The position numbers and the translations under genes were made by a program. A model generated the notes under the pieces. That model ran no database searches. It was not told the origin of the DNA and saw nothing but the letters and a program-made list of their open reading frames with translations. This document shows, in pieces, positions 9,257-38,582 of a stretch of 64,000 bases of DNA (position 1 is the first letter of the stretch; the number at the start of each line of letters is the position of its first letter). The stretch is from Parasphingorhabdus marina DSM 22363 (GTDB lineage Bacteria > Pseudomonadota > Alphaproteobacteria > Sphingomonadales > Sphingomonadaceae): the NCBI RefSeq assembly GCF_900128895.1, contig NZ_FSQW01000001.1, positions 1,612,001 to 1,676,000 of the forward strand. The letters run 5' to 3'.

Positions 9257-10420
9257 ATGATTACGGATGTGCCGGGAACACTGGAAAACCGGAGTGACCA
9301 TCCACCGGCCTCCGCGCTTCGCTACCTGTTCCCGGTCAATCCCGGTATCGCAATTGGCAGCATGCTCGCGGTCTGGGGCACCTATTTTCTGTTCGCCACC
9401 ATCTATGTCCAAATATTGCAACCCCCGTCACCCGCCCGCGCGACGGGGCAATATCTGCTGCTGACGGGTTTCGCGCTGGCGACGACCTGGGTTCTTTATC
9501 GCGTCCTGGCTTTTTTGGGAAGCGGGCGGATTTCCAGCGGATTAACGGTGCTGATCATTCCCGGACTTGCGCTGGCACTGCTTATTTCCTGGTTTGGAAT
9601 GACATTCGTCGACCAGCAGGCTTTTTTCTCCGGCCGATTTGGCGGGGCGAATTTATCCGGGTCATTGGCAGAAACACGTGCCGCGCTGCTGCTGGCGACA
9701 TTTGTGCATTTTTTGATCCTGGCCAGCTGGGGATGCGGCTATCTGGCATGGTCCCATGACCGCGCGACACAAAAGGCGATGGAGAAGAGCAGGCTGCTGG
9801 ATCGATTGACCCGGGAAAGCGAGCTCCGCGCACTGCGATTCCAGCTCAATCCGCATTTTGTTTTCAACGCGCTCAATTCGGTCAGCAGCCTGATCATTGA
9901 TCGCCGCAATTCGGAAGCCGAGCAGCTGGTTGAGCAGCTGGCCGATCTCATGCGGGTGGTGCTTGACGAAGGACAGCACCGGATGACTACGGTTGAGAAA
10001 GAGATCGAACAGCAGTCTCGCTATCTGGAGATCGAGAAGGTGCGGTTTCCTGACCGGTTGAACTATTCCTGCGAGATTGCAGTTGATGTCCGGGACTGGG
10101 AAGTTCCGGTTCTCATCATTCAGCCACTGGTGGAAAATGCGATCAAGCATGGCGTGGCGCAATTCTCTGGCGCTGTCCGGGTCGAGATATCGGCCCGCCG
10201 AGACGGCGACAGATTGCGGCTGGTTGTCGCAAATGATGGAGCAATATCGGGCACCGGAACGGAGGAGTGGCAAGCCGGGACCGGTCTGGCCAATGTCAGG
10301 GAGCGCCTGAAGGCCGTTTACGGATATGAGGCTGCACTGGAAACCGGCCATGATGCGGAAGGATTTGCCGTGGCCACAATCATCGTTCCGGATGCCGCCA
10401 AAGCGCTGCAGGTCAGGTGA
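9257..10420 (+). CDS. LytS/AlgZ-type sensor histidine kinase
   Basis: 387 residues. Four or so membrane helices span about 30-165 (cores near 33-52, 68-86, 96-115 and 143-165), with no obvious periplasmic sensor domain. A His_kinase (PF06580-type) module follows, with the phosphoacceptor region RFQLNPHFVFNALNSV (His200), and then a HATPase domain with QPLVENAIKHG and GTGLANVRERL. Its TGA overlaps the ATG of the LytTR regulator by one base, so the pair is translationally coupled. The upstream DUF2891 lipoprotein could be a signal partner or an output; that link is inferred from position only. Confidence 0.93.
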   Translation: MITDVPGTLENRSDHPPASALRYLFPVNPGIAIGSMLAVWGTYFLFATIYVQILQPPSPARATGQYLLLTGFALATTWVLYRVLAFLGSGRISSGLTVLIIPGLALALLISWFGMTFVDQQAFFSGRFGGANLSGSLAETRAALLLATFVHFLILASWGCGYLAWSHDRATQKAMEKSRLLDRLTRESELRALRFQLNPHFVFNALNSVSSLIIDRRNSEAEQLVEQLADLMRVVLDEGQHRMTTVEKEIEQQSRYLEIEKVRFPDRLNYSCEIAVDVRDWEVPVLIIQPLVENAIKHGVAQFSGAVRVEISARRDGDRLRLVVANDGAISGTGTEEWQAGTGLANVRERLKAVYGYEAALETGHDAEGFAVATIIVPDAAKALQVR

Positions 10421-35597: not shown

Positions 35598-36692
35598 TTA
35601 ACTTCTTCGATCTTCGCTTTCGTCCGGGCTGACTGTTGCGTTGTGGACCGTTAGCCTCTGGGCGCCGGCCGGGGCATCCGAAAAGAGCTCCGGTTCGGTG
35701 CCGGTTAGCCAGACCTGTCCGCCCCGGTCGGTCAGCCGCTCGAACAATATTGCGCGTCGTCCCGGATCGAGATGTGCAGCCACTTCGTCCAGAAGCAGGA
35801 CCGGACGCATGCCACGCTGCTCGCCGATCAGATCGGCATGGGCGAGCACGATCGACAGGAGCAGGGCCTTTTGTTCGCCGGTGGAGCACAATGCTGCAGC
35901 CTGGTTCTTGGCCTTGTGAAACACGGTCATGTCGGTGCGATGCGGGCCGAGCAGGGTACGCCCGGCGGCCCTGTCTGCCTGTCGGCCGGCTGCCAGAGCG
36001 GCGCGCAGCTGTTCTTCCGTTTGCAAGCCACCATCGTCCAGTATCAGCTCCGCTGCGGCAAACAGACTGTCATCTGCCGTTCCGATCCGTGCATTGAGCG
36101 CGGTGGCATTGCGAGATCGGGCCTCGGCGATGGCGCTGCCAAATTCGGCGAGCTGACGGTCGAGGGCATCCAGCCATTCCGGATCGGGAGAAAACTCTTC
36201 CGCCAGCAACCGGTTGCGTTCGCGGCGCACGGCTTCATATCGGGCGGTATTTCTGGCGTGACCCGGTTCCAGCGCCGTCACCAGGCGATCGAGAAAATTC
36301 CGCCGACCGGCCGCGCCTTCGAGAAACAGCCGATCCATGGCCGGCGTCAGCCACAAGAGCGAAAGCCACTCGCCAAGTTCGTTGGTTGGAACCGGTGCGC
36401 CATTGACCCGCGACTTGCGCCGGTCCGGATGTTCGGCGCTGATGCCGGTGCCAAGCCGGGTTTCGCCAATGGTACCGGCCACCGCGAAATCGCCGCCACC
36501 TCCGGCCAGTGCGATGTCTCGCAGCGGTGCCCGGCGCAGTCCGCGTCCCGGGGCCAACAGGGAAACCGCTTCCAGAATATTGGTTTTTCCAGCCCCATTT
36601 TCCCCGCTGAAGATGATCAGCCCCGGTGAGACGTCCAGTCGCAACTCTGCGTAGTTTCGGAAATTCTGCAATGTCAGCCGGGATATCGTCAT
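35598..36692 (-). CDS. recF: DNA replication/repair protein RecF
   Basis: 364 residues, an SMC-like ATPase that loads RecA at single-strand gaps. Walker A is GENGAGKTN (30-38), preceded by the RecF signature [15 protein letters not shown]; the family signature LLGPHRTDM is present, and a Walker B-like [11 protein letters not shown] follows, with [11 protein letters not shown] before it. The gene stands alone here; dnaN and gyrB, its usual neighbours, are not in view. A 36-codon hydrophobic frame downstream (35440-35550) was considered but not accepted. Confidence 0.95.
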
Positions 36693-36880
36693 GATGCGGG
36701 AATTGTCCTAGCCCCGGCCCCGCAGCTTGAGAAGAAAATTCGCGGGATTTTACAGGTTCATTCATTTCTCGTTCAGGAAATGCTAAAAGTTAGGAATATT
36801 TCCCACTAATCAGGATTGGATGACATGGCGAAATATGGAAAAATCGCATAAACTGTTGAAATATAAAGATAAATTAAAAC

Positions 36881-36896
36881 TGGCACGGCCTGTGCA
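36881..36896 (+). promoter_or_regulatory. Sigma-54-type promoter (TGGCAC... TGC) upstream of the micropeptide/pspC operon
   Basis: TGGCACGGCCTGTGCA matches the RpoN -24/-12 form: GG at 36882-36883, exactly 10 bases, then GC at 36894-36895. The -24 half TGGCACG is perfect against the consensus; the -12 half is TGC preceded by G instead of T. The predicted start is about 12 bases downstream, giving a leader of about 50 bases before the first ATG (36958). Sigma-54 control is known for the enterobacterial psp operon, which fits the PspC gene here. Confidence 0.65.
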
Positions 36897-36957
36897 ATGT
36901 ATGGGGCAACTTCGCAAACAAAACCGCGAAGACCCAGTTTTGGAAAAGGAAAGAAAA

Positions 36958-37077
36958 ATGATCTCGAATATGTCTCACAATGTCGCCGCCGCTTTTGCCG
37001 CTCTTGTTTCCTCCGCCGTCCTGCTCAGCGCGAGCATCGGACCTGCAGTCGACAATGCCGCAAACCTGATCGCCTGA
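36958..37077 (+). CDS. 39-residue micropeptide, first of a tandem pair
   Basis: Starts at ATG 36958 after an AAAAGGAAAG ribosome site and ends at TGA 37075-37077. The peptide has a short polar N-terminus, a hydrophobic segment with NVAAAFAALVSSAVLLSAS (about 8-26), and a PAVDNAANLIA tail. It shares about 20 of 39 identical positions with the next gene, with no gaps. It could be a small membrane peptide or a signal-peptide-like product. It lies behind a sigma-54-like promoter and ahead of pspC. Confidence 0.75.
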   Translation: MISNMSHNVAAAFAALVSSAVLLSASIGPAVDNAANLIA

Positions 37078-37121
37078 TCAGCAAATCTGAACCAGCCAAA
37101 TTACACCCAAAAGGAAAACTC

Positions 37122-37241
37122 ATGACCCTGAATTTGAAAAACCACTTCGCCGCTGCATTTGCTGCCCTGGCTTCTGCCGCAGTTCTGATCAGCACGAGCA
37201 TCGCTCCCGCTTTCAACAATGCCGGCTCCATGGTGATCTGA
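37122..37241 (+). CDS. 39-residue micropeptide, second of a tandem pair
   Basis: Starts at ATG 37122 after AAAAGGAAAA and ends at TGA 37239-37241. The sequence is a clear paralogue of the preceding peptide: HFAAAFAALASAAVLISTS (about 8-26) and a PAFNNAGSMVI tail. Conserved Asn, Pro and the AAAFAAL core point to selection on the protein. Its stop overlaps an ATG (37241) of a longer reading of pspC, but the probable pspC start is 37325. Confidence 0.75.
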   Translation: MTLNLKNHFAAAFAALASAAVLISTSIAPAFNNAGSMVI

Positions 37242-37324
37242 TGACCAGCAAGGAAAAACAGACCACCAGCACCCCCCGCAGCTGGCCCACTTCAACCGAA
37301 ACCAGAAAAGGAAAAAGCAACCCG

Positions 37325-37504
37325 ATGAAAAACGCACTTCGTCTCGACAAGGCCAATGGCAAATTGATGGGCGTATGTTCCGGTCTCGCCAACTGGAGCG
37401 GAATTGATGTTACGATCTGGCGGATTGGCTTTGTTGCCGCTGCCCTGTTCGGTATCGGCGCGCCGGTCCTGATTTACATCGCTCTCGGCCTGATCGTCGA
37501 CTGA
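37325..37504 (+). CDS. PspC-domain small membrane protein
   Basis: 59 residues from the ATG at 37325; the frame is open from 37241 (87 residues) but only the later ATG has the AAAAGGAAAA leader shared with the two upstream micropeptide genes. It is almost a bare PspC domain: RLDKANGKLMGVCSGLANW, then one or two hydrophobic helices ending APVLIYIALGLIVD. PspC proteins sense or respond to envelope stress at the inner membrane. It is probably the third gene of the sigma-54 unit. Confidence 0.85.
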   Translation: MKNALRLDKANGKLMGVCSGLANWSGIDVTIWRIGFVAAALFGIGAPVLIYIALGLIVD

Positions 37505-37631: not shown

Positions 37632-38582
37632 ATGTCAGGTCATCACCATCATCACAGTCACCTGTCTCACAGCCATCACGATCGCCATGGCCCGCACGGC
37701 CACATGCCCACGGATTTCAGCCGGGCCTTTGCTTTTGGCATAGCTCTCAACATCATCTATATCATTGTCGAAGTTACCTTTGGCATTCTCGCCGGTTCGA
37801 TGGCGCTCATCGCAGACGCGGGACATAACCTGTCCGATGTACTCGGCCTGGCCGTAGCATGGGCCGGTGCCGAACTGTCCAAACGCCCCCCCAGCAAACA
37901 ATTTACTTACGGACTGGGTGGCTCTTCCATCCTCGCAGCTCTGCTTAACGGCCTGTTCCTGCTCGTGGCATGCGGTGCGATCGCCTGGGAAGCGATCGAA
38001 CGGTTCAGGACACCCAGTCCCGTCGCCTCGACAACGGTGATCATTGTGGCTTCGATCGGTATCGTCATCAATTTTGCCACCGCCATGTTGTTCGTCCGCG
38101 GACAGAAAGAAGATATCAATATCCGCGGCGCGTTTCTGCACATGATGGCAGATGCCGGCGTTTCGGCTGGTGTCGTCCTTGGCGGCATTGCGATTTTCCT
38201 CACTGGTCTGAACTGGATCGATCCGCTGGTCAGTCTCGGGATTGTGGCGTTGATCTTCTGGAGCACCTGGGGCCTGTTGCGGGAAGCGGTACGCATGTCC
38301 CTGGCCGGTGTACCGCGCGATATCGATGCCGAGGAAGTCATGAATGCGCTGGCCCAATTGCCCGGTGTGCAAACGGTGCACGATCTTCATATCTGGCCGA
38401 TGAGCACAAGCGAGAATGCGATGACCGCGCATCTGGTCATTCCTGACGGACATCCGGGCAAGGGATTTCTCGCTGATGTGCAGCGCGACATGAAGGCCCG
38501 CTTTGCCATCCACCACATTACCATTCAGATTGAGCTGGAGGATGAGGAATCCGGAGAATGCCAGACGGATTGCCAGTCCTGA
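37632..38582 (+). CDS. Cation diffusion facilitator (CDF) family metal exporter
   Basis: 316 residues. A His-rich N-terminus (about 11 His in the first 24 residues) precedes six membrane helices, with CDF metal-site HxxxD motifs in helices II and V: DAGHNLSD and HMMADAGVS, typical of zinc exporters of the CzcD/ZitB type. A cytoplasmic C-terminal domain (about 225-305) ends in a Cys pair. It probably exports Zn2+ (or Cd2+/Co2+) by proton exchange. The leader has an occluding hairpin (listed separately). Confidence 0.94.
   Translation: MSGHHHHHSHLSHSHHDRHGPHGHMPTDFSRAFAFGIALNIIYIIVEVTFGILAGSMALIADAGHNLSDVLGLAVAWAGAELSKRPPSKQFTYGLGGSSILAALLNGLFLLVACGAIAWEAIERFRTPSPVASTTVIIVASIGIVINFATAMLFVRGQKEDINIRGAFLHMMADAGVSAGVVLGGIAIFLTGLNWIDPLVSLGIVALIFWSTWGLLREAVRMSLAGVPRDIDAEEVMNALAQLPGVQTVHDLHIWPMSTSENAMTAHLVIPDGHPGKGFLADVQRDMKARFAIHHITIQIELEDEESGECQTDCQS

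Follow-up and report, generated by a model that had tools for sequence, protein, structure and literature searches.

Candidate PspF-controlled micropeptides beside a small pspC gene in Parasphingorhabdus marina and other sphingomonads

Among the closest described counterparts of the locus reported here is the Psp regulon of E. coli. PspF binds the upstream activating sequences of pspA and pspG, aided by IHF (PMC3709507), and its known repertoire in E. coli consists of the psp operon and pspG (PMC9239133). YohP is described as a protein of 27 residues that lowers the membrane potential and raises PspA and PspC (PMC12719787). Here we examine a window of 64,000 nucleotides from Parasphingorhabdus marina DSM 22363 (contig NZ_FSQW01000001.1, positions 1,612,001 to 1,676,000), in which two tandem peptide genes and a small PspC-domain gene follow a sigma-54-like element. 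PspF-type enhancers point to unannotated peptides of this kind, which many sphingomonads encode first in the pspA operon and which one genus has amplified.

Layout of the locus

The features of the locus are as follows.
35598..36692, minus strand: divergent neighbour, which from its sequence we take to be RecF-like; conserved neighbour family F1, 30 members.
36790..36806, plus strand: PspF-type upstream activating sequence TTAGGAATATTTCCCAC, 91 bp 5' of the sigma-54 site; 19.7 bits by matrix.
36849..36860, plus strand: IHF-like TAA-N4-TTGAA in the enhancer-promoter interval, matching YAAN4TTGAW at -32.
36881..36896, plus strand: putative sigma-54 (RpoN) -24/-12 promoter TGGCACGGCCTGTGCA, with GG-N10-GC.
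36958..37077, plus strand: micropeptide 1, 39 residues, first position of the operon; dN/dS 0.20 among first peptides of pspC-linked loci.
37122..37241, plus strand: micropeptide 2, 39 residues, last position, N-terminal Lys; dN/dS 0.20 among last peptides of pspC-linked loci.
37241..37504, plus strand: stand-alone PspC-domain protein (PF04024), an 87-residue ORF with a TGATG overlap with the stop of micropeptide 2.
37632..38582, plus strand: downstream neighbour, presumably a His-rich CDF-type cation transporter, as named from its sequence; conserved neighbour family F0, 31 members.

An initial annotation had described two gap-free 39-residue paralogues with about 20 identical positions, behind a GG-N10-GC element and next to a PspC-domain protein. 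All of this agrees with our analysis: the peptides align without gaps at 20/39 identical positions, TGGCACGGCCTGTGCA lies at 36881-36896 with the start of micropeptide 1 77 bp after its first base, and the third gene product matches PF04024 (E 4.5e-16, 58.8 bits against a gathering cut-off of 25), while missing the TIGR02978 equivalog cut-off of 104 bits whether read as 59 residues (54.8 bits) or as 87 (53.3 bits). The leader said to be common to all three genes is shared by the second and third (AAAAGGAAAA) and differs before the first (AAAAGGAAAG).

The start first assigned to the third gene probably has to be moved. In 31/31 pspC-linked clusters the PspC frame starts inside the stop of the final peptide (29 TGATG, 2 TAATG), which favours 37241 and makes the window PspC the 87-residue ORF. 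The N-terminal extension thereby gained (37241-37324 in the window) is coding, with a dN/dS of 0.27 against 0.026 for the domain in the 28/31 sequences used (3/31 fell out of the domain/extension split), and carries a Trp-Pro in 30/31. A start at 37325, giving 59 residues, is on this comparison probably wrong, and the overlapping start and coding extension together place the third AAAAGGAAAA inside a gene. A possible link to metal stress is offered by the His-rich CDF-like transporter gene (37632-38582) that follows the pspC-linked operon.

The peptide family and its sequence

The peptides are encoded in 32/32 genomes of the same genus, with 2-10 matches each at E 0.01 or better; outside the genus 1/28 related genomes gave a weak match (60 related genomes searched in all). 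An iterated profile recovered 168 copies in 77 clusters from the fetched stretches (60 pairs, 14 triplets, one quartet and two singles), 166/168 being 38-40 residues long. Each same-genus genome holds 2-10 copies in 1-5 operons; that of the window holds four copies in two operons, the second lying at C1:1185767. The three-gene unit of the window is one among several peptide operons. Across the order, the profile found a match at E 0.01 or better in 39/296 genomes and 12/79 genera; a wider distribution rests on the position of such peptides before pspA. The second operon, the peptide heading the pspA operon and the family-wide distribution had all escaped the initial annotation.

A PspC motif lies within 400 bp of 31/77 clusters, and a pspC-linked cluster was found in 31/32 genomes. 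Such a motif is missing over that distance in the other 46/77 clusters, of which 37 have, in the automatic layout, an opposite-strand ORF as first neighbour. PspC is therefore not an obligate partner, a candidate that we reject, and the earlier suggestion that the peptides work specifically with PspC is unsupported.

Database searching returned 252 protein matches at E 0.01 or better; where the matches listed (at least 120 of the 252) have a product name, it is hypothetical, unnamed or uncharacterized protein. Neither Pfam nor NCBIfam gave a match for the window peptides, and membership of a known protein family was rejected for them on this account; a known RNA was also rejected, the one snoRNA match scoring 20.8 bits where the gathering score is 36. 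DUF7503 matched two pspA-operon peptides at E about 0.05, below the cut-off.

That short peptide ORFs should be conserved in relatives had been proposed as a check, and it holds: besides their presence in all 32 genomes, dN/dS is 0.20 for both first and last peptides at the pspC locus and 0.20 and 0.28, respectively, elsewhere, third codon positions differing most. These values come from equal-length pairs only (pS 0.05-0.6), and the figures for other loci mix paralogous positions. Judged by these comparisons, selection on the peptides is purifying. Chance ORFs were rejected, given 168 copies and a dN/dS of about 0.2.

The most conserved residues are A15 (98%), A16 (96%), P30 (99%) and A31 (96%), and 104/168 copies have no charged residue. 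Charge follows position in the operon: Lys or Arg occurs within the first 12 residues in 0/75 first and 56/75 last peptides, and 72/75 first against 18/75 last peptides lack K, R, D and E altogether. The window pair follows this uncharged/cationic order, except for one Asp in peptide 1. AlphaFold gives a single helix over residues 3-38 (mean pLDDT 74, pTM 0.39), and conservation has a periodicity that peaks at 100 degrees per residue (P 0.012); for side-chain volume no significant helical periodicity was seen (P 0.30). The peptides are probably embedded in the membrane.

Promoter, enhancer and the pspA operon

A sigma-54 site scoring at least 9 of 12 against the consensus lies 73-90 bp before the first ATG in 75/77 clusters, 63 of the 75 scoring 11; mononucleotide shuffles reach 9 in 5.1%, 10 in 0.4% and 11 in 0.06% of cases. 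The site has the form TGGCAYR-N5-TGC with a dyad 91 bp upstream, spaced as in the pspA promoters of the genus. The window site matches 11/12 positions in a TGGCACG-N4-TTGCW context, with GG and GC 10 bp apart, and the 3.55-Mb genome contains 14 instances of TGGCACG-N5-TGCW and two of the reversed pattern. The genome has one rpoN match and 12 PF00158 activator matches (7 below E 1e-53), one of which exceeds the cut-off for PspF (TIGR02974, 498.7 bits against 443.55) and adjoins the pspA operon. The RpoN-type promoter proposed initially is thus upheld; the element put forward for testing (TGGCAC-N5-TGC) recurs, in the form TGGCAYR-N5-TGC, in those 75 clusters at a nearly fixed distance, and the PspF activator to be looked for is present. 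A sigma-70-like site was not found, and sigma-70 control was rejected on that basis; as 1.1 such sites are expected by shuffling, this is weak evidence. The two clusters that lack a sigma-54 site (L049 and L067) hold divergent peptide pairs and adjoin a shared neighbour family, F41.

Promoter scans covered 74 of the 77 clusters, dropping L030 (too little upstream sequence) together with L049 and L067 (no site), and 65 of the 74 remained after filtering for redundancy. The consensus of these 65 contains a dyad, TTGG-N9-CCAA, centred at -83, with a self-complementarity of 56.5%, the median for the scanned axes being 26%. It also contains TAA....TTGATATA, an IHF-like box (TAA-N4-TTGAT). As a sequence match, the strict IHF pattern lies at -32 in the window and at -18 in the psp operon of this genome and is absent from its second peptide operon; the IHF part is the weakest element of the promoter case.

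We trained one matrix on pspA enhancers of the genus, taken from 19 operons in which they precede the sigma-54 site by 91-93 bp. Its median score on the 74 peptide promoters was 3.1, against -4.9 for shuffles, with 53% above the 95th percentile, and its best hits fell at -90 to -95 in 55/74 against 4.3 expected. In the reverse direction, a matrix trained on 64 peptide promoters other than that of the window picked out TTAGTGTAATTCGCTAA, which lies 81 bp ahead of the E. coli pspA promoter, with 0/500 shuffles as good; we take TTAGTGTAATTCGCTAA to be the PspF site of E. coli pspA. Among the 14 TGGCACG sites of the window's genome only three score 10 or more by this reverse matrix, each at -91, namely those of the psp operon (10.8), the second peptide operon (18.7) and the window (19.7), the next best site reaching 5.6. 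For random pieces of the fetched loci, a background in which true sites may partly be included, its 95th and 99th percentiles are 5.5 and 15.3.

The same matrix exceeds the 95th percentile of shuffles in 63/63 testable pspA operons (of 65 loci) from other named sphingomonads, with the enhancer at -90 to -93 or -80 to -81. We also scored 28 loci belonging to other genera of the family: 20 have a recognisable sigma-54 site, and there 0/100 shuffles score as well for 19 and 1/100 for L123; among these 20, 12/12 selected peptide loci of genera g2, g35 and g36 have an enhancer of 13.1-22.3 at -90 to -92. An enhancer common to the pspA operon and the peptide operons ties the peptides to PspF, as the psp link drawn initially had anticipated, and control by PspF and sigma-54 is, as far as regulatory sequence can tell, very probable. 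The eight loci of the 28 without a recognisable site all belong to genus g37, in which they make up 8/14 loci (L109, L112, L114, L115, L116, L118, L119, L125); in six of them (not L114, L119) a peptide lies directly before PspA, and control has perhaps been switched.

The pspA operon of this genome itself begins with a hydrophobic peptide. Depending on the start codon it has 54 or 60 residues, and an N-extended PspA frame overlaps its stop. Small PspC and PspA (L003, about 9436-9576) are alike in having N-terminal extensions that start by overlap with the stop of the preceding peptide. Site and peptide are present in 19/19 same-genus pspA loci read. More widely, we read the best 80 of 567 pspA loci, mostly named Sphingobium, Sphingomonas, Blastomonas, Sphingorhabdus, Parasphingopyxis or uncultured sphingomonads, 15/80 (L172-L186) being of the window's genus by similarity. 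A sigma-54 site is present in 78 of these 80, and 71/78 have, between site and pspA, a short hydrophobic ORF with a small-x-small-P motif, against 0.1% of shuffles; excluding the 15 loci of the window's genus the count is 56/63. A stricter filter had given 63/80, which the figure of 71/78 replaces, and two of the seven misses (L199 and L213, Blastomonas) show a hydrophobic frame under looser criteria. Some Sphingomonas versions are 35 residues long and end directly after the GPA motif, so that the helix is the part kept. By hhalign the amplified peptides match 15 pspA-operon peptides of other genera with a probability of 90% (E 1.6e-6), but eight of the same genus only weakly, at 44% (E 2.3e-4).

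In other families of the order the small ORF seen in 6/8 pspA loci is a different one, 37-59 residues long with an Arg-rich C-terminus (e.g. RRRERARR). It lies between the sigma-54 site and pspA in L141, L142, L143, L144, L145 and L149, and the four such ORFs tested had no Pfam match. Six of 20 same-genus genomes searched (G002, G003, G005, G015, G016, G018) have a further PspA/IM30 homologue that matches more weakly (E 1.5e-10 to 1.5e-8).

Possible roles and relation to known systems

We lean slightly towards a reading in which the micropeptides are membrane-inserted helices of the Psp regulon, an uncharged/cationic pair acting as structural effectors on the stressed inner membrane; for the effector role taken by itself the balance is even. 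Membrane stress would free PspF from PspA, so that the peptides would be produced in quantity along with PspA and PspC. Each peptide would enter the inner membrane as a single Ala/Ser-rich helix, the helices would pack via their conserved face, the uncharged first type and cationic last type would probably assemble together, and the assemblies would stabilise or reshape the stressed membrane. A structural, dose-dependent role is suggested because the peptides are multicopy and come as an ordered uncharged/cationic pair. A broader scenario, which we put forward tentatively and consider rather doubtful as a whole, is that a passenger-less, signal-peptide-like micropeptide became the centre around which sphingomonads rewired their phage-shock response. 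The micropeptide would have been the ancestral first gene of the pspA operon, amplified later in several genera into stand-alone PspF operons; in Parasphingorhabdus, with an uncharged-N-terminus helix first and usually a cationic one last, a two-subunit membrane assembly would be a main output of the response.

The main rival to an effector is a regulatory role beside PspA, PspB and PspC, in which the peptides would bind one of these proteins in the membrane and tune Psp signalling by feedback or sensing. The peptide in the promoter-pspA interval of 71/78 loci (among the best 80 of 567), the frame overlap with PspC in 31/31 clusters and also with PspA, and the helical period of conservation would all suit such a partner; the 46/77 clusters without a pspC motif within 400 bp do not, and 2-10 copies per genome seem more than a regulator needs, and we consider this role unlikely. 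The same overlaps, together with the signal-peptide-like sequence, could also indicate leader peptides, whose translation would only couple the translation of PspA and PspC or target it to the membrane. A mere leader was rejected since stand-alone operons exist: 37 of those 46 clusters have an opposite-strand first neighbour, and with the amino-acid sequence itself under selection (dN/dS 0.20-0.28) this explanation appears highly improbable.

TisB is a stress-induced hydrophobic peptide, and the size, single hydrophobic helix and psp-type promoter of the micropeptides would fit controlled depolarisers of the TisB or YohP sort, lowering the proton motive force to bring about a protected slow state. 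YohP triggers Psp, whereas the micropeptides lie downstream of PspF, so that depolarisation would form a positive loop; nor was an antisense antitoxin seen (no Rfam family above cut-off, no sigma-70-like site), which is weak evidence. We regard such a function as improbable. Finally, the GPA-x-A of the pspA-operon version resembles a signal-peptidase site, and the helix could then be a signal peptide from which the C-terminal 8-20 residues are released as a secreted signal; as this tail is variable, and missing in the 35-residue Sphingomonas versions, secretion is the least credible of these readings.

The regulatory kind is known, and in the open-access literature searched we did not find this peptide family as a PspF target; in the Psp surveys searched by term, "Sphingo" and "small protein" have 0 occurrences. 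Micropeptides overlooked by annotation can be found via their regulatory signature, and those described here give straightforward genetic access to the action of Psp effectors on a damaged membrane.

The third gene of the window belongs with the stand-alone PspC-domain proteins (PF04024) and differs from the PspC equivalog TIGR02978, of which it covers only positions 4-59 of 121, at 53-55 bits against 104. By size (<50 residues) and hydrophobicity the micropeptides can be likened to YohP-like stress-induced small membrane proteins (PMC12719787), from which a PspF-type promoter and multiple copies distinguish them. The enhancer/sigma-54 layout of the window is like that of E. coli pspG and pspABCDE, the PspF/IHF/sigma-54 regulon, from which the peptides are set apart by having no Pfam or NCBIfam match, by their length (38-40 residues in 166/168 copies), by their tandem arrangement and by their presence in several operons.
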